Assembly (NCBI GenBank): GCA_022841465.1
Contig: JALHRL010000005.1
Coordinates: 1 to 64,000 of the forward strand
From: Bacteroidia bacterium
GTDB lineage: Bacteria > Bacteroidota > Bacteroidia > B-17B0 > Aurantibacillaceae
DNA length: 64,000 bases
Direction: 5' to 3'
Positions 14,490-23,290 of the stretch are shown piece after piece. The translations under genes were made by a program, and so were the position numbers. The stretch's first letter is position 1. Each line of letters starts with the position of its first letter. The notes beneath the pieces were generated by a model. It did not search any database and had not been told where the DNA came from. It saw only the letters and a program-made list of their open reading frames with translations.

Positions 14490-16067
14490 TTATTCTTTAA
14501 TGAATTTAGAATAATACATTCGACCATCACTTTTCAATTGAATAAAATAAACACCCGGCGTAAGGTCGCCCACTGAAATTTCCTTGCAGTTAAAATGTGT
14601 TTTGATATTCTTTCCATTCACATCCAAAACATTTACCTCCTCAATAACTGCTGAGTTGGCAAGATCAAATTTTAAAATGTTTGAAGTTGGGTTGGGATGA
14701 AGGTTTATGATTTTATTACCCAAATTATTTTCAAATAAACCAACTTCATTCATGGTGCAATTTGTGGTATAAATATTTAATGTATTAGTTGTAACATTTG
14801 GTGCTATAGAATTTATTGTGTAAGAACTTATTGGATTTATTTTACAAAATGCTGTATAACTAGTAGGTGAAGAACCGGGTGTTACAGCATAATTACATGA
14901 TACAGTGGATATGCAAGGTGATGATGAGTTGAAGTTAAGGTTCATTAATTTTAAAGGATTAAGAGGCGAACTTTGGGGAATATGTTCCTGAAAAAATGAA
15001 TTGTTTTTTAAAGATTGAATTCTATTAGAGCCCATTTGAATTGGCCAAGTAGGGTAAATGTATGTTGCTCGGCAAATTCCAGTTGTAGTGCCGTTGGTGT
15101 CAATAGAAGCAACTGCTATTTTCGATCCTGGAAAATTAACGCCAAATAAAAATTGACAAAGAACTTGTCCTTTATAGTTTTCTGTTGCACCTATTGAGGG
15201 GAAACCCGGACCACCGTCAAATCGTGTCGTCCATAAATTTTTGGCACTTGAATTATATTTTGCCATCGTTACATCTAATGTGTTTCCAATTGCACCCGGC
15301 CTATAACTGACATATAAATAAAAGTCGGTATTCATTTTTGATTTCAATATTGACCATCCCATCAAATAATCGCCATAACTGTTTCCAAATATGGGGATAT
15401 AATTAATTAATGTATCATTTGTTTCGTCATAACTTATATTAAAAATAGTACTAGCTAAATACCCACTTAATTGAGGTCCGCTTCCTTTGCCAAATCGGGT
15501 TAATTTGTAAAAACCTGAACTGTCATTTACAACTTGAAAATAAGTAGATGGAGAATATAAAGCACCAATCATTTTAAGAGATATTGTATTACCATTGGTA
15601 TCTGTTTTTAGTATAAAGCCATTATCGGAAACATCTGAACCCACATTGGTTGAGCCAGAAATGATAAGATCATTGTTTCTATCTAATAAGATTCTATTGC
15701 AATTAACTGTGTGTGTTCCGCTTAATGTGCCAGAATAAACGGCATTAATTCCTTCAATATTTTTTGTCCAAATTGGATTTCCATCCAAATCCATTTTACC
15801 AAAATGATTTTTATCAAAAAAGTACATGCTACCTGTTTTACTCAGAAGCAATCCATAAAAATTTATAGAAGAATAATCTTTCCTCCATAGTACATTTTGA
15901 TTTTTATCGAATTTGAAAAGGGAATTGTTGTAAAAACCGTACATATTTGTATCCTTATCCACCGGAAATTCACCGGCATTGCCTGTTGAAGCATTTAAAT
16001 AGGGGAGTTGGGCAAATGAACTATTGCCAACCAAAACAATTAAAAGTAAAAGAATGAGTTTTTTCAT
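14490..16067 (-). CDS. Secreted protein with T9SS type A sorting domain
   Basis: This 525-residue protein begins with a signal peptide (MKKLILLLLIVLVGNSSFA). The middle (about 40-400) is made of repeated short strands with WRKDYS, NPIWTKNI and TDTNGNT motifs, as in beta-propeller or PQQ-like secreted proteins of Bacteroidota. The last 80 residues are a type A T9SS sorting domain (LHPNPTSNILKFDL, VGDLTPGVYFIQL, SKFIKE). Export to the cell surface or medium by T9SS is therefore expected. Its ligand or activity is not recognisable. It is transcribed alone and has no obvious promoter match. Confidence 0.88.
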   Translation of the reverse strand: MKKLILLLLIVLVGNSSFAQLPYLNASTGNAGEFPVDKDTNMYGFYNNSLFKFDKNQNVLWRKDYSSINFYGLLLSKTGSMYFFDKNHFGKMDLDGNPIWTKNIEGINAVYSGTLSGTHTVNCNRILLDRNNDLIISGSTNVGSDVSDNGFILKTDTNGNTISLKMIGALYSPSTYFQVVNDSSGFYKLTRFGKGSGPQLSGYLASTIFNISYDETNDTLINYIPIFGNSYGDYLMGWSILKSKMNTDFYLYVSYRPGAIGNTLDVTMAKYNSSAKNLWTTRFDGGPGFPSIGATENYKGQVLCQFLFGVNFPGSKIAVASIDTNGTTTGICRATYIYPTWPIQMGSNRIQSLKNNSFFQEHIPQSSPLNPLKLMNLNFNSSSPCISTVSCNYAVTPGSSPTSYTAFCKINPISSYTINSIAPNVTTNTLNIYTTNCTMNEVGLFENNLGNKIINLHPNPTSNILKFDLANSAVIEEVNVLDVNGKNIKTHFNCKEISVGDLTPGVYFIQLKSDGRMYYSKFIKE

Positions 16068-16182: not shown

Positions 16183-16686
16183 TTAAAACAACTTCTCTAA
16201 AGCAATTTTAAACCAGCTGGTAAATTCATCGGGATTGTTTTTAACCTCCTGTTTAATAGCGTCTAAACTCATCCATTTATAAGTATGTACTTCTTCTTTA
16301 TTTATCTGCGGGTTGGCGTTGGTATAACCAATGTATACATGATCTAATTCATGCTCGGTTAATCCGTTATTAAAAGGTGTTTTGTAAATAAAAGAATTTT
16401 TGTGTTCTAAACTGGTTTCTAGTCCCATTTCTTCTTTTAATCTTCTGTTGGCGGCATCTAAGGTTTCTTCTTCAGGTCGTGGATGTGAGCAGCAAGTATT
16501 AGTCCATAAACCGGCACTGTGGTATTTGGTTAATGCGCGGCGTTGCAGCAACATTTCACCTTTATCATTAAAAATAAAAACAGAAAATGCACGGTGTAAT
16601 ACTCCTTTTTCATGGGCTTCCATTTTTCCCATAACGCCAATGGCTTTGTCGTTTTCATCAACCAATATTACTTTTTCTTCAGCCAT
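16183..16686 (-). CDS. idi: Isopentenyl-diphosphate delta-isomerase, type 1
   Basis: This 167-residue Nudix-fold enzyme has LLQRRALTKYHSAGLWTNTC, followed by CSHPRPEEETLDAA and RRLKEEMG. The Cys of the TNTCCSHP segment and the Glu residues further on are the known active-site and metal positions. It interconverts IPP and DMAPP, supplying the starter unit for carotenoid synthesis. It is the last gene of the leftward carotenoid arm, and its ATG lies eight bases inside the preceding gene. The GGPP synthase that would use its product is not in the window. Confidence 0.95.
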   Translation of the reverse strand: MAEEKVILVDENDKAIGVMGKMEAHEKGVLHRAFSVFIFNDKGEMLLQRRALTKYHSAGLWTNTCCSHPRPEEETLDAANRRLKEEMGLETSLEHKNSFIYKTPFNNGLTEHELDHVYIGYTNANPQINKEEVHTYKWMSLDAIKQEVKNNPDEFTSWFKIALEKLF

Positions 16687-17173
16687 TTATTAATTTCTTT
16701 TCTTGTTCGCTTAATTTCCCGTGCACTTGTAAATATGCGTAAATATTTGAATATAATTCAGTGTCGGTTTGTTTAATTTCGTTTAATTTTTTTATAAGAA
16801 ATTGTTTATCGCTTTTTATGTTTTTGTTATATCCTAAAAATCCCGGGGCATTGGTTTGAATGGTAAACCTTATATATCTTATCTCCGCATTTAATGAATC
16901 AATCAATACCACTTTTTCAAGTATTTTTTTACCGGAATTAAAAGCGTTTATTTTTGATACCGGGCTAATTTTGTATTGCGCCGATGTCATTTCAGCCGCG
17001 GCATAGTAAGCCATTTTTAAACTGTTGCTTACCTCATTGGTTGATAAACTCAGCGTTTTTAGCTGTTCAACAGCCGTTTCACTTTTGTTGATGGTATGAA
17101 AAAAAGACCTCATTTTTTTGAGGTCTTGATTTAACACAAACACAACTATGAAGAAAAAAGAGAAAAGTTTCAT
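16679..17173 (-). CDS. Uncharacterised exported helical protein of the carotenoid operon
   Basis: This 164-residue protein is not one I can assign. A hydrophobic N-terminus (MKLFSFFFIVVFVLN) looks like a signal peptide or membrane anchor. The rest is predicted helical and charged. One segment (AFNSGKKILEKVVLIDSLNA) resembles a TPR-type helix pair, and is followed by EIRYIRFTIQTNAPGFLGYN. Its ATG overlaps the crtB stop codon as TAATG, and its 3' end overlaps idi by eight bases, so it is embedded in the carotenoid operon and probably translated with it. A membrane-associated accessory role in pigment synthesis or placement is an inference from context only. Confidence 0.8.
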   Translation of the reverse strand: MKLFSFFFIVVFVLNQDLKKMRSFFHTINKSETAVEQLKTLSLSTNEVSNSLKMAYYAAAEMTSAQYKISPVSKINAFNSGKKILEKVVLIDSLNAEIRYIRFTIQTNAPGFLGYNKNIKSDKQFLIKKLNEIKQTDTELYSNIYAYLQVHGKLSEQEKKLING

Positions 17174-18009
17174 TACAAAATATTCAAACTATTGCGCAAG
17201 TAGCTGCCGGCAAATAAAGCCACTTTTTGTCCGTTTGGTATACGAATACGCTCTTGCATAATGTGGCTTGCCTTTAGCTTTTTAATTTTATTAAATAATG
17301 AACGGTAATAAATATAGGCTACATAAACTCCTAAGCGCGCTTTTTTTGGAAGCATTTTAATTCCGGCTAAGCCAGTATTAAAATCGGCTTCAATATCTTT
17401 TTCAATTTCGGCTTTTGTTTCGTCGTTCAGCTCATCCAGGTTTACGTTCGGGAAATAAACACGACCCATTCCTTTGTAATCGGCGTTTAAATCGCGTAAA
17501 AAATTAATTTTTTGAAAGGCAGAACCCAGCGACATGGCATAAGGTTTTAATTGATCGTATAATTTATGGTCGCCCTCGGTAAAAACACGCAAACACATTA
17601 AACCAACCACTTCTGCGCTTCCTAAAATATATTCTTTGTAACCTTCGTCGGTATAGTTTTTCTTTTCTAAATCCATTTCCATACTTTTCAAGAAAGTGGA
17701 AGTTAATTCAGGTTCAATATTGTATTTATTTACTACCTCCTGAAAGCTGTTTAATATAGGGTTTAAGCTTATTCCTCTATCAATAGAAGTAAAGGTTTCG
17801 TGTTTAAATTCTTCCAGTAAAACAGCCTTATCAAAATCATGAAAACTGTCCACAATCTCATCGGCAAATCTTACAAATCCGTAAATGCCATAAATAGGCT
17901 TATGAAAATCTTTATGTAAAAACTGAATACCCAAGCTAAATGAAGTACTGTATTGGCGTGTTACCATTTTACTGGCTTTATTGCTTATGGTGTCGAATAA
18001 TACTTTCAT
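17173..18009 (-). CDS. crtB: Phytoene synthase
   Basis: This 278-residue enzyme is of the squalene/phytoene synthase family. It has the two Asp-rich motifs that bind Mg-diphosphate: DEIVD (D50, D54) and DLNAD (D173, D177), the second followed by GMGRVYFP. RQYSTSFSLG near the start is also typical. It condenses two GGPP molecules to phytoene. A TTG at 18033 would extend it, but the ATG at 18009 gives the normal length. It lies 24 bases after crtI, and its stop overlaps the next start as TAATG. Confidence 0.95.
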   Translation of the reverse strand: MKVLFDTISNKASKMVTRQYSTSFSLGIQFLHKDFHKPIYGIYGFVRFADEIVDSFHDFDKAVLLEEFKHETFTSIDRGISLNPILNSFQEVVNKYNIEPELTSTFLKSMEMDLEKKNYTDEGYKEYILGSAEVVGLMCLRVFTEGDHKLYDQLKPYAMSLGSAFQKINFLRDLNADYKGMGRVYFPNVNLDELNDETKAEIEKDIEADFNTGLAGIKMLPKKARLGVYVAYIYYRSLFNKIKKLKASHIMQERIRIPNGQKVALFAGSYLRNSLNIL

Positions 18010-18033
18010 ATTGGTGTTTTTTTGTTTAAACAA

Positions 18034-19509
18034 TTAATTTTCAAAATAGTTTATAATTTGATCAGCGGCCAGTTTACCCGAAATAAGAGCAGGTGGAACC
18101 CCCGGTCCCGGCACTGTTAACTGACCCGTATAAAAAAGATTTTTTACTTTTTTATTTTTAATGCTTGGTTTTAAATGCGCCGTTTGCATAAGTGTGTTGG
18201 CTAAACCATAGGCATTACCCTTAAAAGCATTGTAATCGCTCACAAAATTGCTGGGCGCATACGATTTAAAGTGAACCAAATTTTCTGAAATATTAAATCC
18301 GGTTTTTGCCAGTATGCGTTCATTTACAATTTTAAAATATTTTTGGCGAAGTTCATCCGTATCGCTTAAACCCGGTGCAACGGGTATTAAAATAAACAAA
18401 TTCTCATAACCTTCAGGCGCTACTGAATTATCTGTTTTGCTTGGGCAACACACGTAAAATAAGGGGTTGTCGGGCCATTCAGCACTTGTATAAATTTCTT
18501 TGGCATGTTTACCAAAATCGGCATCAAAAAATAAATTATGGTGTAATAAGTTATCAACTTTGCCTTTAACGCCAACATAATAAATTAAACAGCTGGGAGC
18601 CATTTTTCTAGATTCCCAATATTTTTGGTTGTATTGACGGTAATCTTCGTCTAATAATTTTTGTTCAGTAAAATGGTAATCTGCTGAAGAAACAAGAGCT
18701 TTAAAACTATTGTAGTTTGTGTTTGCCGTAATGGTTTTGGCAAGACCATTGGCTACATTTATTTTTTTAATATCAATTCCTGTTTCAAATTTTACACCTA
18801 ATTCTTTGGCTAGTTCGTACATTCCTTCTGCAATTTTTTGCATACCACCCATGGGGTACCATGTACCAAGAGCTAAATCGGCGTAATTCATTAAGCTGTA
18901 TAGTGCAGGAGTGTTTTCAGGTAAAGCACCCAGAAACAAAACAGGAAATTCTAAGAGTTGAATGAGTTTTTCGTTTTTAAATAATTTGCGCACATGACTG
19001 CTCATACTTTTAAAAACATCTAACTTAAATACGCCCGAAATAAGTCGGGCATCTATTAATTCCGAAATATTAATTCCGGGTTTGTACACTAAATCGTGAA
19101 TACCAACATTGTATTTATACTCGGCCTCTTTTAAAAACTTTTTTAGTTTGGGCGAACTTCCGGGTTCGTATTTTTCAAATAATTGATAAAGTTCCTCTAG
19201 GTTGGCAGGAACATCAAATTTATCGTCTGTAAAAAATACGCGATAACCAGGACTTAGTCTAACTAACCGGTAATAATCAGATACTTTTTTACCAAAATCG
19301 CCAAAAAACTTCTCAAAAACATCGGGCATCCAATACCAACTAGGGCCCATATCAAACACAAATCCATTTTCAGAATAGCTTCTAGAGCGGCCTCCAACAA
19401 CTTGGTGCTTCTCATAAACTGTCACTTCAAATCCGGCTTTAGCCAGGTAACAAGCTGATGATAAACCGCTAAATCCGGCTCCAATTATTGCTATTTTTTT
19501 ATTGTTCAT
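18034..19509 (-). CDS. crtI: Phytoene desaturase
   Basis: This 491-residue flavoprotein has the dinucleotide-binding motif GAGFSGL (G10, G12, G15) with a charged residue at the end of the second strand (VYEKHQVVGG). It also has MGPSWYWMPDVF and the C-terminal CrtI signature (YTGQLTVPGPGVPPALISGK). It desaturates phytoene stepwise, normally to lycopene. It is the first gene of the leftward arm. The ATG at 19509 lies 58 bases from the likely start of the divergent crtD gene, so both arms probably share one control region. Confidence 0.95.
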   Translation of the reverse strand: MNNKKIAIIGAGFSGLSSACYLAKAGFEVTVYEKHQVVGGRSRSYSENGFVFDMGPSWYWMPDVFEKFFGDFGKKVSDYYRLVRLSPGYRVFFTDDKFDVPANLEELYQLFEKYEPGSSPKLKKFLKEAEYKYNVGIHDLVYKPGINISELIDARLISGVFKLDVFKSMSSHVRKLFKNEKLIQLLEFPVLFLGALPENTPALYSLMNYADLALGTWYPMGGMQKIAEGMYELAKELGVKFETGIDIKKINVANGLAKTITANTNYNSFKALVSSADYHFTEQKLLDEDYRQYNQKYWESRKMAPSCLIYYVGVKGKVDNLLHHNLFFDADFGKHAKEIYTSAEWPDNPLFYVCCPSKTDNSVAPEGYENLFILIPVAPGLSDTDELRQKYFKIVNERILAKTGFNISENLVHFKSYAPSNFVSDYNAFKGNAYGLANTLMQTAHLKPSIKNKKVKNLFYTGQLTVPGPGVPPALISGKLAADQIINYFEN

Positions 19510-19567: not shown

Positions 19568-21037
19568 ATTAAACAAAGGGTAAACATAATTGGTTCAGGA
19601 GTTTCGGGATTGGCCATTGCAATACGTTTGGCTTCGCAAGGCCATAAGGTTCAGGTGTTTGAGAAAAATGCTTACCCGGGTGGCAAATTGGCGGAATTAA
19701 AATTGCTGGGTTATAGATTTGATAAAGGGCCATCTTTGTTTACCATGCCTAAACTGGTAGACGAGTTAAGTGAATTGGGAAACACGGAAGGAAAGTTTGT
19801 GTATAAAAAACTGGAAAACATTACGCATTATTTTTACGAAGATGGAACAAAACTAATTGCCAGTTCAGATAAAAATAAGTTCGCGAAAGATATAGCAGAA
19901 ATTTTAGGAGAAGATAAAATGGCGGTATTAAAGCATTTGAGTAAAAGTGCTTTTTATTACGACACTACAGCCGAATTGTTTTTAAATCAATCATTACACA
20001 AAATAAAAAACTTTATCAATTTCAAAACTTTAAAGGGAGTATTTAATGCACCTCGTTTGGCTTTAAACAAAACCATGCATCAAAAAAACAACAGCGCCTT
20101 TAAAAATGAAAAAACGGTTCAGTTGTTTAACAGATATGCTACGTATAATGGCTCTAATCCATACAAAGCGCCTGCTTTGTTAAATATTATCCCACATTTA
20201 GAATTTGGTTTGGGAGCTTATTTACCTGAAAAAGGGATGCACCAGATAACCGAACATTTATATGATACGGCAAAAAAATTAGGAGTAAAGTTTTATTTTA
20301 ATTCAGAAGTTGAAAAAATTGAATTGAAGAATAACGCTGCGGTTGGTGTTAGGATAAACGGACAGTTATATCCTGGTGATTTGGTAGTGAGTGATGCCGA
20401 TATTCATGTATTGTATAATAAACTTTTACCGAATGAGTACGCACCTAAAAAATTATTGAATCAAGAGAAATCAAGTAGTGCATACGTGTTTTATTGGGGA
20501 ATTAAAAAAGAATTTAAAGAATTGGGTTTGCATAACATTTTATTTTCAGATAATTACGAAGAAGAATTTAATCATTTGTTTACCAAACATAAACCATACG
20601 GCGATCCTACCATTTACATTAACATCACCTCAAAGTATTGTGAAGCTGATGCGCCAAAAGGTTGTGAAAACTGGTTTGTTATGATTAATGTTCCGCATAA
20701 TAAAAGTGGTAAAGCAATTGAGTATGCAGATGAATTGCGAAAAAACGTAGTGAGTAAAATAAACCGTATTTTAAAAACAGATATAGAAAAGTTAATAGAA
20801 GTGGAGGATAAGTTAGATCCTTTAGATATTGAAAAGCAAACTTCATCATTCGGCGGATCTTTATATGGAAATGCCAGTAATAATAAGTTCGCGGCATTTT
20901 TACGTCATGCAAATTACAGTTCAAAAATAAATGGTTTGTATTTGGTAGGCGGTAGCGTTCACCCGGGTGGAGGGATACCTTTGTGTTTGCTAAGTGCTAA
21001 AATTGCAAGTAATTTAATTAAGGATGATTTAAACTAA
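19568..21037 (+). CDS. crtD: CrtD-type carotenoid 3,4-desaturase
   Basis: This is a CrtI-family flavoprotein of about 489 residues. The C-terminal stretch LVGGSVHPGGGIPLCLLSAK and the position beside cruF favour the CrtD branch, which desaturates an acyclic end group (3',4') after hydration. The dinucleotide-binding motif GSGVSGLAIAIRL is in frame from 19592, yet no ATG, GTG or TTG lies between the upstream stop (19550-19552) and that motif. The first usable conventional codon, TTG at 19610, would cut the motif. An ATT at 19568 (residues IKQRVNIIG) gives a normal N-terminus and is taken as the tentative start. The stop overlaps the next ATG as TAATG. Confidence 0.85.
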   Translation: MKQRVNIIGSGVSGLAIAIRLASQGHKVQVFEKNAYPGGKLAELKLLGYRFDKGPSLFTMPKLVDELSELGNTEGKFVYKKLENITHYFYEDGTKLIASSDKNKFAKDIAEILGEDKMAVLKHLSKSAFYYDTTAELFLNQSLHKIKNFINFKTLKGVFNAPRLALNKTMHQKNNSAFKNEKTVQLFNRYATYNGSNPYKAPALLNIIPHLEFGLGAYLPEKGMHQITEHLYDTAKKLGVKFYFNSEVEKIELKNNAAVGVRINGQLYPGDLVVSDADIHVLYNKLLPNEYAPKKLLNQEKSSSAYVFYWGIKKEFKELGLHNILFSDNYEEEFNHLFTKHKPYGDPTIYINITSKYCEADAPKGCENWFVMINVPHNKSGKAIEYADELRKNVVSKINRILKTDIEKLIEVEDKLDPLDIEKQTSSFGGSLYGNASNNKFAAFLRHANYSSKINGLYLVGGSVHPGGGIPLCLLSAKIASNLIKDDLN

Positions 21038-21663
21038 TGTTACAAATTTATCGTAAATATTTTCTTTACTTCTTAATTTTGGTTTATGTATCAGGCGCCA
21101 TTGGTTTTGTGTTGAATCCCGATTTCTTTTTACCATTTACTCCTTTTACTTTGGTATATACTTCATTTGTGTTTTTAATTTATCAACCCATTCATAATGT
21201 AAAATACGTTATTAGTTTTATAGCTGTTGCAATTATTGGTTTTGTTAGTGAGGTAATTGGTGTAAAAACAGGAATGGTTTTTGGTGAGTACAGCTATGGC
21301 ACAACCTTAGGTTATAAGTTTTTAGAAGTTCCTTTAACCATATCTTTAAATTGGGCGTTACTGGCAAGCGCTTGTATTTTAATTGCATCCTACTTATCGT
21401 CACATAAAGTGGTAGTTTCAATTGTTTCTGCAATTTTAGCCACTTCTGTTGATTTTTTAATAGAACAAGTTGCGCCAAATTTGGGTTTCTGGAGATTTAA
21501 TGAGGGTATGCCCGGTTGGCATAATTATTTAGGTTGGTTAGGTGTTTCGTTTATCGCTGCCCTGCTTTTTACACCCGTGCTTAAAACCGGAAATAAAAGA
21601 ATTGCACTTGCAATAATTGCCTTACAAATTTTATTTTTTTTATATATTTATTTAATCTCTTAA
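21037..21663 (+). CDS. cruF: Carotenoid 1,2-hydratase, CruF-like membrane protein
   Basis: This 208-residue protein of the DUF422/carotenoid biosynthesis family has about six or seven membrane segments. Conserved polar positions lie between them (EVIGVKTGMVFGEYSYG, LIEQVAPNLGFWRF, GMPGWHNYLGWLG). Family members CruF add water across the 1',2' double bond of the acyclic psi end of monocyclic carotenoids. It lies between crtD and crtZ, with TAATG overlap to crtD. Without the context it could be called only a carotenoid-cluster membrane protein; the crtD, crtZ and crtY neighbours make the hydratase assignment likely. Confidence 0.85.
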   Translation: MLQIYRKYFLYFLILVYVSGAIGFVLNPDFFLPFTPFTLVYTSFVFLIYQPIHNVKYVISFIAVAIIGFVSEVIGVKTGMVFGEYSYGTTLGYKFLEVPLTISLNWALLASACILIASYLSSHKVVVSIVSAILATSVDFLIEQVAPNLGFWRFNEGMPGWHNYLGWLGVSFIAALLFTPVLKTGNKRIALAIIALQILFFLYIYLIS

Positions 21664-21665
21664 AA

Positions 21666-22151
21666 ATGAACATAGCTTTAAATATTGGAATTGTGTTAAT
21701 CACTTTTGTGTTAACAGAATTTTCGGCTTGGTTAAATCACAAATTCATTATGCACGGATTGATGTGGTACTTTCATGCCGATCATCATAAGAAAGACCAT
21801 AACCATTGGTACGAACGAAATGATGTTTTCTTTTTAATGTATGCAATACCCAGCTGGTTGTGTATTATGTTTGGTATGATGAACGGGTATGCATGGTACA
21901 CCTGGGTTGGTTTTGGTATTGCTTTATACGGTTTAGCATATTTTTTTGTACACGATGTAATTATTCATCAGCGCATTAAGATTTTAACTAAATCAACAAA
22001 CACTTATGTTCTTGCCTTGCGAAGAGCTCACAAAATGCACCACAAGCATTTGGGGAAAGAAGACGGAGAAAGTTTTGGTATGTTGTTTATACATCCAAAA
22101 TATTTTGCAGAGGCCCGTAAATTAAAGAAAGGCCAATTAGGAGTTTCTTAA
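21666..22151 (+). CDS. crtZ: Beta-carotene hydroxylase
   Basis: This 161-residue di-iron membrane hydroxylase has the clustered histidines of the fatty-acid-hydroxylase/CrtZ family: HKFIMH (H25, H30), FHADHHKKDH (about 37-45), HDVIIH, and HKMHHKHLG near the C-terminus. Four hydrophobic segments surround them. It adds 3-hydroxyl groups to beta-ionone rings. It starts two bases after cruF and shares TAATG with crtY. Confidence 0.95.
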   Translation: MNIALNIGIVLITFVLTEFSAWLNHKFIMHGLMWYFHADHHKKDHNHWYERNDVFFLMYAIPSWLCIMFGMMNGYAWYTWVGFGIALYGLAYFFVHDVIIHQRIKILTKSTNTYVLALRRAHKMHHKHLGKEDGESFGMLFIHPKYFAEARKLKKGQLGVS

Positions 22152-23290
22152 TGAATAATAAAAATTCATACGATTTTATTATTGCAGGCATGGGTTTGGC
22201 AGGTTTATCGCTTGCTATGCAATTAAAAAACTCTTCTGTTAAGTTCAACAAAGTATTATTAATTGATAAAGATTTAAAAAATAAAAACGACAGAACCTGG
22301 TGTTTTTGGAGCAAAGAAGATGCAAATTGGTTTGATAAAATTATTTTTAAACGTTGGAGCAAGTTTAAATTTAGCAGTTCCGGATTAAATAAGGTTTGTG
22401 AAATTAATCCTTACCAGTATTGCATGATAAAAGGAATTGATTTTTATAACTTTTGCTTGAATGAACTAAAATCAGATATACGTTTTGATTTTGTAACCGA
22501 TGAAATAAAAAAGATTGAAACAAAAAACAACCAAGCACATTTGCATACAATAAAAGAGGAATATCATTCAATGTATTTATTCAATAGCGCTATTCGAACA
22601 CCAAAAATAGTGCAAAAACACATTAACTACGTACAGCATTTCAAAGGTTGGCTTATTGAAACAGAAGAGAATAATTTTGATGTAGATTGTCCAACTTTTA
22701 TGGATTTTAATATCCATCAAAAAAACGATTGCAGATTTGTTTATGTTTTACCATTCAGTTCCAATAAAGCCTTAGTAGAGTATACCGGATTTTCGCCGAA
22801 AAGAATTGATGACGAAGAATATGATGCAGAACTTACAAGTTACATAAAATTGAATTTAAAAATTGAAAATTACAAGGTTCTGGAAGAGGAGCAAGGCGAA
22901 ATACCTATGTTTGAGAGCGAGTTTGTAAATTTATTTGGTAATAGGGTTATAAACATTGGAACTTCCGGCGGCTCAAGCAAAGCCAGTACAGGTTTTACTT
23001 TTTATTTTGTGCAAAAGCATATTTCTGAATTAGTAAAATCTTTAGCAAATGGAAGCCCGATTTCTTTTGCAAGAAAACCAAAGTATTTGTATTACGATAG
23101 GATTTTAATGGACGTAATTGATAAAAAGAAAATGCCTGCATCAGAAATTTTTGAAACATTGTTTAAAAAAATTCCAACGCCAACTATTTTGGCTTTTTTA
23201 AATGAAGAATCAAGTTTATTACAGGAATTACGTATTATGAATTCCGTTCCAAAACTTAAGTTTGTGCCTGCCGCCTTAAGAAAACTGTAA
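22151..23290 (+). CDS. crtY: Lycopene cyclase, CrtY type
   Basis: This 379-residue flavoprotein-like cyclase begins with a dinucleotide-binding motif (IIAGMGLAGLSLA, G13, G15, G18). It has DRTWCFWSK, characteristic of CrtY/CrtL proteins, and YVLPFSSNKALVEYT and GTSGGSSKASTGF further on. It closes the psi ends of lycopene to beta rings; acting on one end gives gamma-carotene, on both ends beta-carotene. It is the last gene of the rightward carotenoid arm. No terminator is visible in the 51 bases before the next promoter. Confidence 0.93.
   Translation: MNNKNSYDFIIAGMGLAGLSLAMQLKNSSVKFNKVLLIDKDLKNKNDRTWCFWSKEDANWFDKIIFKRWSKFKFSSSGLNKVCEINPYQYCMIKGIDFYNFCLNELKSDIRFDFVTDEIKKIETKNNQAHLHTIKEEYHSMYLFNSAIRTPKIVQKHINYVQHFKGWLIETEENNFDVDCPTFMDFNIHQKNDCRFVYVLPFSSNKALVEYTGFSPKRIDDEEYDAELTSYIKLNLKIENYKVLEEEQGEIPMFESEFVNLFGNRVINIGTSGGSSKASTGFTFYFVQKHISELVKSLANGSPISFARKPKYLYYDRILMDVIDKKKMPASEIFETLFKKIPTPTILAFLNEESSLLQELRIMNSVPKLKFVPAALRKL

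Follow-up and report, generated by a model that had tools for sequence, protein, structure and literature searches.

To our knowledge, little is understood about how hydrophobic pigments such as carotenoids reach given membranes of two-membraned bacteria, or how they stay there. Flexirubin has been reported in the outer membrane and its gene set was proposed as its exporter (PMC3992019, in the part available), Lol/RND-type genes being the proposed carriers of the pigment to that membrane (PMC3992019 and PMC8253772, as far as their available text goes). BstC is a periplasmic lipoprotein and a putative component of a sterol transporter (PMC10942540, available part). The haemophore HusA of Porphyromonas gingivalis combines four helix-turn-helix motifs, a TPR/14-3-3-like fold and a concave hydrophobic groove (PMC6173696, available sections), and the TPR domain of PTPIP51 reportedly has a cavity in which phospholipids bind and transfers phosphatidic acid in vitro (PMC9239997, available sections). 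Here, we compare with these systems a small gene, X, that lies between crtB and idi in the window (the whole stretch of 64,000 nucleotides that was analysed).

In the window, the operon is ordered crtI-crtB-X-idi, and crtD-cruF-crtZ-crtY run divergently from the far side of crtI (Table 1). A preliminary description had the start of X overlapping the crtB stop and its end overlapping idi, and this is what the reading frames give: crtB (ORF ending at 17173) and X have one base in common in TAATG, while idi starts at 16686, inside the final codons of X, for an overlap of 8 bases. Given the CrtID and CrtD models and the gene content (gene set compared with the available part of PMC11855829), the pathway is expected to end in a monocyclic saproxanthin/myxol-type carotenoid. 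The crtD frame (window 19583..19610, +) continues upstream through a nucleotide-binding motif, VNIIGSGVSG, to a stop with no ATG, GTG or TTG; either a rare start codon would be used there or a sequence error would lie nearby. Right behind idi (window 14490..16067, −) is encoded a large, apparently secreted protein whose C-terminus, we presume, resembles a type IX secretion C-terminal domain. Neither RNA families (at gathering scores) nor tRNAs were found in the window. The window copy of X probably serves carotenoids only, since the DarB model was not reached in its own genome (best 35.5 bits, cut-off 550).

Table 1. Features of the carotenoid locus in the window and CruF-CrtB fusions in related loci.
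Feature	Position	Strand	Properties or basis
X (subject of this study)	16679..17173	−	164 aa, ATG start; probably exported, TPR-like helical
X N-terminal hydrophobic export signal or anchor, residues 1-15	17129..17173	−	sequence and hydropathy of relatives
TAATG, crtB stop/X start overlap	17171..17175	−	ORF coordinates; short overlaps kept in relatives
8-base overlap, X end/idi start	16679..16686	−	ORF coordinates
crtB, phytoene synthase	17173..18033	−	SQS_PSY 140 bits, E 1.2e-40; operon position
crtI, phytoene desaturase / 3,4-desaturase type	18034..19509	−	NF058655 CrtID 734.5 bits, cut-off 640
idi, isopentenyl-diphosphate isomerase (type 1)	16183..16686	−	NF002995 179 bits, cut-off 127
crtD, 1-hydroxycarotenoid 3,4-desaturase	19610..21037	+	NF042421 611.9 bits, cut-off 500; true start probably further upstream
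cruF-like carotenoid hydratase	21037..21663	+	Caroten_synth E 1.5e-25; CruF NCBIfam models matched, below cut-offs
crtZ-like carotene hydroxylase	21666..22151	+	FA_hydroxylase 42.9 bits, cut-off 31; operon position
crtY-like lycopene cyclase	22151..23290	+	Lycopene_cycl E 2.1e-45
CruF-CrtB fusions	L062:5977-8409, L064:7302-9845, L063:7337-9898 (with X); L065:7314-9074 (without X)

The window protein found no match in NCBIfam or among PDB sequences and no Pfam family, the only Pfam signal being NPH3 (E 0.016), under its cut-off. As a single query it nevertheless had matches at E <=0.01 in 54 of 100 related genomes, a few of them weak and in very long frames, and the best single-protein matches to relatives reached E 3.7e-57. 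Against the A1 profile, which itself contains the window sequence, it scored E 2.2e-61. By its sequence, it is a member of an undescribed Bacteroidota family, here called X; the literature searched, outside which many subscription journals lie, holds no description of the family beyond one 'hypothetical protein' that, by gene order, may belong to it (PMC7064467, available part). We define the pigment-cluster X family by an A1 match, a hydrophobic N-terminus and a position in a pigment cluster, all of which the window protein has. Carotenoid genes flank 27 of 29 relatives, and crtB 25 of the 29 (flanks of ~1.5 kb). Ten columns of the 29-row alignment are invariant, and the polar residues R22, N95, E97, R99, R102, Q106, Y115 and D122 are invariant or nearly so. 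A chance ORF is ruled out by the invariant residues of the 29- and 43-row alignments and by the recurring gene order: X is a real gene, as first claimed, and has a conserved family. Identical sequences were counted once; alignment A4 is without L172, L173 and L180, and A7 without these and L138, L140, L148, L155, L171 and L178. No plasmid-borne copies were found with one relative as query.

Searches with 43 members against Pfam and NCBIfam returned scattered weak matches, most of them confined to a single member; the best had E 0.0013 in Pfam and E 0.00029 in NCBIfam. No carotenoid-enzyme profile of either collection matched these members or the window protein, and the statement that X resembles no carotenoid enzyme stands for every profile tried. 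Curated models detected no tandem TPR repeats in the window protein; among the 43 members TPR_17 matched three (best E 0.0075) and TPR_8 one (E 0.027), all weakly. The 43-member profile matched four PDB sequences, all designed proteins by name and three of them consensus TPRs (best E 0.0053). Moreover, hhalign related the family at 97.4%, over 97 columns, to the proteins of loci L074-L076, which match TPR models (L074: TPR_2, 37.7 bits, cut-off 27). This kinship makes it probable that X is TPR-like but diverged. The three distant relatives (L074:5977-6693, L075:6406-7116 and L076:5837-6487) are encoded near ABC transporter genes.

The structural model agrees with the helical protein of the preliminary description. 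At full length its pLDDT is 92.5, residues 1-10 being least confident (pLDDT 61); from residue 16 it reaches pLDDT 96.4 and pTM 0.91 and is all helical, with eight helices that, from their order, read as four TPR-like hairpins. Foldseek gave no match below E 0.001 for the model; with the mature protein, the PTPIP51 TPR domain came first (prob 0.96, E 0.23), and a bacterial sterol transporter, 7t1s, sixth (prob 0.82). In the VIA comparison, Rgg144 led (Z 10.4), HusA was second (6bqs, Z 10.0, 141 aligned, rmsd 4.0), and TPR, 14-3-3 and other helical chains followed down to Z 8.6; values near 10 are not clear of unrelated helical proteins and may reflect a common helical arrangement, and fold families missing from these lists are not thereby excluded. 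The lipid-, sterol- and haem-binding fold neighbours may thus be taken as a lead, their scores not being proof of kinship. Helix H5 and the loop 109-118 are the most conserved parts (3.0 and 2.6 bits), ahead of H3 (2.13), H4 (2.10) and H6 (1.6 bits). The groove of a TPR fold is lined by the first helix of every pair. The pattern in X is not purely groove-like, because H3 and H4 are equally conserved.

The N-terminus of the window protein is hydrophobic (MKLFSFFFIVVFVLN), as had been noted; by eye, a clear small-x-small site is missing, as is a lipobox cysteine, the N-terminal segment containing no cysteine. An N-terminal stretch of 15 residues had a hydropathy of at least 1.8 in 88 of 114 free X ORFs (loci L062-L180, some ORFs being one gene present in two loci), of 1.35-1.79 in 21 and below 1.3 in five. 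The five are the short frames of L165 and L180 and paralogues from the window's genus in L082, L086 and L088 (the last, at 1.24, doubtful). These short paralogues (L082:6302-6727, L086:1411-1839, L088:5819-6256), from three genomes, have little or no export signal and form one clade, away from recognised pigment genes. Three loci, L062, L063 and L064, whose genomes belong to as many families of the phylum, encode CruF, CrtB and X as a single chain, as assigned by Pfam in L062 and L064 and, in L063, from an 853-aa frame, X at its end and its grouping in the tree; in L065 (Pfam) and L066 (BLAST) a CruF-CrtB fusion is followed by a separate X. A hydrophobic stretch precedes X in the fused chains (Kyte-Doolittle 2.7, strong, in L062; 1.9, clear, in L064; 1.3, weak, in L063), itself preceded by Arg/Lys between CrtB and X, so that by the positive-inside rule the X part would lie outside the inner membrane. 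Taken with the hydrophobic N-termini, these fusions suggest that X is probably exported across the inner membrane.

The A1 profile, run over 395 Bacteroidota genomes, found 77 hits, spread over 73 genomes and counting that of the window. Forty lie in carotenoid loci, 28 in flexirubin clusters and nine elsewhere (the weak L002 hit, in a long ORF, does not enter the context counts or the tree); 68 of the 77 are pigment-linked. In 31 genomes X adjoins crtB (at most 500 bases away, same strand), downstream in 31 of 31. Larger stretches around the remaining 46 hits revealed a flexirubin polyene/export sub-cluster in 24, DAR genes in four, fusions in three, other carotenoid genes beside X in five, CruF-CrtB beside it in one (G106) and no recognised pigment gene in nine. 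The G106 ORF had been dropped by the ORF picker and was counted as carotenoid, its CruF-CrtB and acyltransferase neighbours matching those of G102. Two of the nine adjoin a CrtD-like oxidoreductase (37% identity), three are distant TPR proteins and four are others. A scan of a separate set of named genomes gave 45 X loci, 32 carotenoid, seven flexirubin and six neither (39 of 45 with pigment genes). Strains of Salinimicrobium, Daejeonella and Mucilaginibacter are represented here with X following crtB. The preliminary description had tied X to the carotenoid operon and proposed to see how often its homologues sit beside such genes. The tie holds for 40 of the 77 hits, but 28 of the other 37 fall in flexirubin clusters, so X is linked to polyene pigments generally and not to carotenoids alone.

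Among 69 distinct crtB-X pairs, 65 are spaced between -60 and +30 bases, and 41 overlap by four bases (26 pairs) or one (15), with starts as set by the ORF picker. X thus overlaps or abuts crtB in most carotenoid loci, an arrangement that the family has kept. CrtB was present in 110 of the 395 genomes at E <=1.4e-46, a cut-off that we set in the gap above squalene-synthase-like matches; one of them (G431) has stop codons inside its match. X and CrtB occur together in 58 genomes (Fisher p ~5e-25, not corrected for relatedness), and X is absent, at the threshold used, from 52 of the 110. Of the CrtB loci that have no X next to crtB, we examined 40 (33 in X-less genomes and seven in genomes with X elsewhere). 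Here the gene that comes next is crtZ (15 loci), idi (12), a lycopene cyclase (seven), cruF (two) or another gene (four, two of them on the other strand). After X, in the 69 pairs, it is idi in 18, crtZ in 18, a cyclase in 10 and not recognised in 17. No constant replacement for X was found in the 33 X-less genomes examined of the 52. By its distribution X is accessory to pigment synthesis, since 52 of 110 CrtB genomes are without it and the 33 of these that were examined hold nothing constant in its place. Nor does the choice of pigment seem to depend on X, as the same next genes occur with and without it. A Nonlabens cluster whose listed genes include none like X yields myxol in E. coli (PMC11855829, available part). 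In one X-less locus (L192), crtB is followed by a gene for a 208-aa protein whose start resembles a signal and bears a cysteine; this protein may be an exported partner of unrelated kind.

In the flexirubin clusters, X has neighbours of two kinds. Those in L083 exceed the curated cut-offs for FlxA, FlxB, DarB, DarG and DarH; those in L096 do so for LolA2 and LolB2, and an RND-acyltransferase protein and a glycosyltransferase are also present. Only these two loci were labelled by curated models, the others by BLAST to their genes. From Pfam, L083 and six relatives had given the impression of a lipid cluster unrelated to pigments; by NCBIfam, L083 is the DAR half of a flexirubin cluster. Of the 31 flexirubin-export loci, 29 have X placed between an ApeI-like dehydratase and a glycosyltransferase. 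NCBIfam holds models for LolA2, LolB2, DarG and DarH, and the L096 copy of X matches nothing there. Relatives of the flexirubin LolA, LolB and RND proteins were not found within seven genes of X in 57 carotenoid loci, and the rest of the outer-membrane route is to that extent not in evidence there. An FAD oxidoreductase distantly like CrtI (20-23% identity; Pfam for L168) occurs in flexirubin clusters, which is why the two pathways may share more than X. The L168 copy (L168:13497-15035), beside an RND exporter, is a possible polyene-modifying enzyme. Between X and DarB in L083 lies a gene for a 299-aa protein (L083:6511-7410) without Pfam or NCBIfam match.

A tree of X was built from 136 of 137 rows (L074, under 85 residues, was left out) and rooted on two distant TPR proteins; beforehand, some labels were edited manually, 'flx' becoming 'lip' for L077 and L078, while L074-L076 received the label 'tpr'. 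The deepest forks, after the unassigned pair L068 and L128, are occupied by the fusions and by carotenoid copies, with the flexirubin copies nested within them. All seven copies from DAR clusters fall in a single clade (support 100); two label changes suffice for the 31 flexirubin-export copies and 12 for the whole tree, against a shuffled mean of 54. Many forks being open, this is suggestive of carotenoid copies first and flexirubin copies later.

Carotenoid and flexirubin pathways have different dedicated enzymes. The presence of one family in both, otherwise unrelated, kinds of cluster suggests that the role of X is to handle pigments, outside the inner membrane, and not to make them. Our preferred, still tentative reading (probability about 0.45) is that X is an accessory periplasmic protein that handles or traffics polyene pigments during or after their synthesis, presumably by binding them. 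X would cross the inner membrane with its N-terminal segment as signal or anchor; helix H5 and the P-x-F-L-x-Y loop would help to form a groove; this groove would take up the pigment, or its lipid or protein carrier, at the outer face of the inner membrane; and X would then help to move the pigment to the cell envelope or to seat it there. The same kind of component would have been recruited into flexirubin clusters, among LolA2, LolB2 and the RND-type exporter. A more ambitious version, which we consider rather doubtful, has X as the first representative to be recognised of a bacterial family dedicated to pigment trafficking. X would then be a TPR-like protein of the periplasm, either a carrier or an acceptor, which receives carotenoids at the inner membrane and transfers them to the outer envelope or seats them there. 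It would have arisen in carotenoid operons (one lineage becoming fused to CruF-CrtB) and later been co-opted into both halves of flexirubin clusters.

The preliminary description had offered two roles, placing the pigment in the membrane or tying the enzymes together. The first is favoured because the dedicated enzymes of the two pathways differ, and the CruF-CrtB-X fusions keep the second alive. TPR-like folds commonly bind proteins. The main rival accordingly has the groove of X bind proteins or peptides and hold pigment enzymes or exporters together on the periplasmic side without ever touching pigment, a role with which the 97.4% profile kinship to TPR proteins and the physical tie to CrtB in the fusions agree. 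However, we know of no periplasmic parts of CrtB or CrtI to be held, carotenoid and flexirubin clusters, with their different dedicated genes, would each have to supply a partner of their own, and a scaffold alone does not explain the reuse in two pathways; we regard this role as unlikely, if the strongest of the competitors. Exported helical-repeat proteins can also be assembly factors, and X is positioned among membrane enzymes, as would suit an envelope chaperone or stabiliser of some membrane protein of the pigment cluster, with no part in pigment movement; but no membrane-protein neighbour common to the carotenoid and flexirubin contexts stood out, and such a role appears improbable.

The (nearly) invariant polar residues listed above might instead speak for an unrecognised enzyme, for instance a polyene isomerase or transferase at the outer face of the inner membrane. 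Against this speak the all-helical TPR-like model without clear enzyme relative (no Foldseek match below E 0.001, VIA Z at most 10.4), the same next genes in clusters with and without X, and the Nonlabens cluster that makes myxol in E. coli without a listed X-like gene; we give an enzyme as little credence as a chaperone. In Chryseobacterium lacus, RS06200, a 'hypothetical protein' between crtB and crtZ, was light-induced together with the crt genes, and the authors guessed at a regulator 'like CarA/LitR' (PMC7064467, available part). By gene order, RS06200 stands in the X position (crtI-crtB-hypothetical-crtZ-cyclase), and Kaistella pullorum (L161) has X in the same position. That X would be a regulator or light sensor of carotenoid synthesis is nonetheless the least credible of these proposals, and the LitR-like guess is unlikely, because X is probably exported, neither it nor the 43 members have a recognised MerR/DNA-binding or B12 domain, and a separate MerR-type gene already lies near the crt genes in L062 (B12 domain over cut-off) and L136 (B12 below cut-off); co-induction is moreover expected from an operon. 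The L136 regulator (L136:1368-2246) and a DNA photolyase near the crt genes of L146 (L146:10479-11792) hint that light controls these clusters.

The pigment-handling reading of X matters in several respects. A conserved, probably exported protein that occurs mainly in the clusters of two chemically unrelated pigments suggests a handling step shared by both. In tractable flavobacteria X offers one gene for deletion, and it may be of use in engineered producers of pigment. A family without a model in the Pfam and NCBIfam copies searched is now given a context.

Among described systems, BstC and TatT (TPAT, PF16811) resemble X, as modelled and predicted, in being all-helical, TPR-like and outside the inner membrane, and BstC, like X, is encoded beside membrane-lipid biosynthesis genes (PMC10942540, available part). 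Chains of this type appear in the X fold lists (7t1s, 3u64 and 8g53), the VIA scores of 8g53 (Z 9.1) and 3u64 (Z 8.7) lying within the spread of unrelated helical proteins. X is smaller, however, and the window protein is without a lipobox cysteine. Membership of the TatT/TPAT family was rejected, as PF16811 is absent from the Pfam matches of the 43 members (E 0.1) and hhalign with three PF16811 proteins gave only 33.9% over 41 columns. HusA is, like X, a Bacteroidota protein; its four helix-turn-helix motifs compare with the four hairpins read from the X model, at a VIA score again not clear of unrelated helical proteins. It binds porphyrin for uptake, has a ninth helix and shows no PDB sequence match to X. 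PTPIP51 is a eukaryotic mitochondrial tether, for which a Foldseek E-value of 0.23 shows no kinship. TPR proteins share with X the four helical hairpins (by the model, for X) and the profile match to L074-L076, whereas curated TPR models match few X members, and weakly. Among the flexirubin/aryl-polyene export genes (LolA2, LolB2, RND; ApeL, ApeM, ApeN), the part of the E. coli ape gene table that was available names no TPR-like member. Although X matches no Lol or RND model, it sits among the LolA2, LolB2 and RND-acyltransferase genes.
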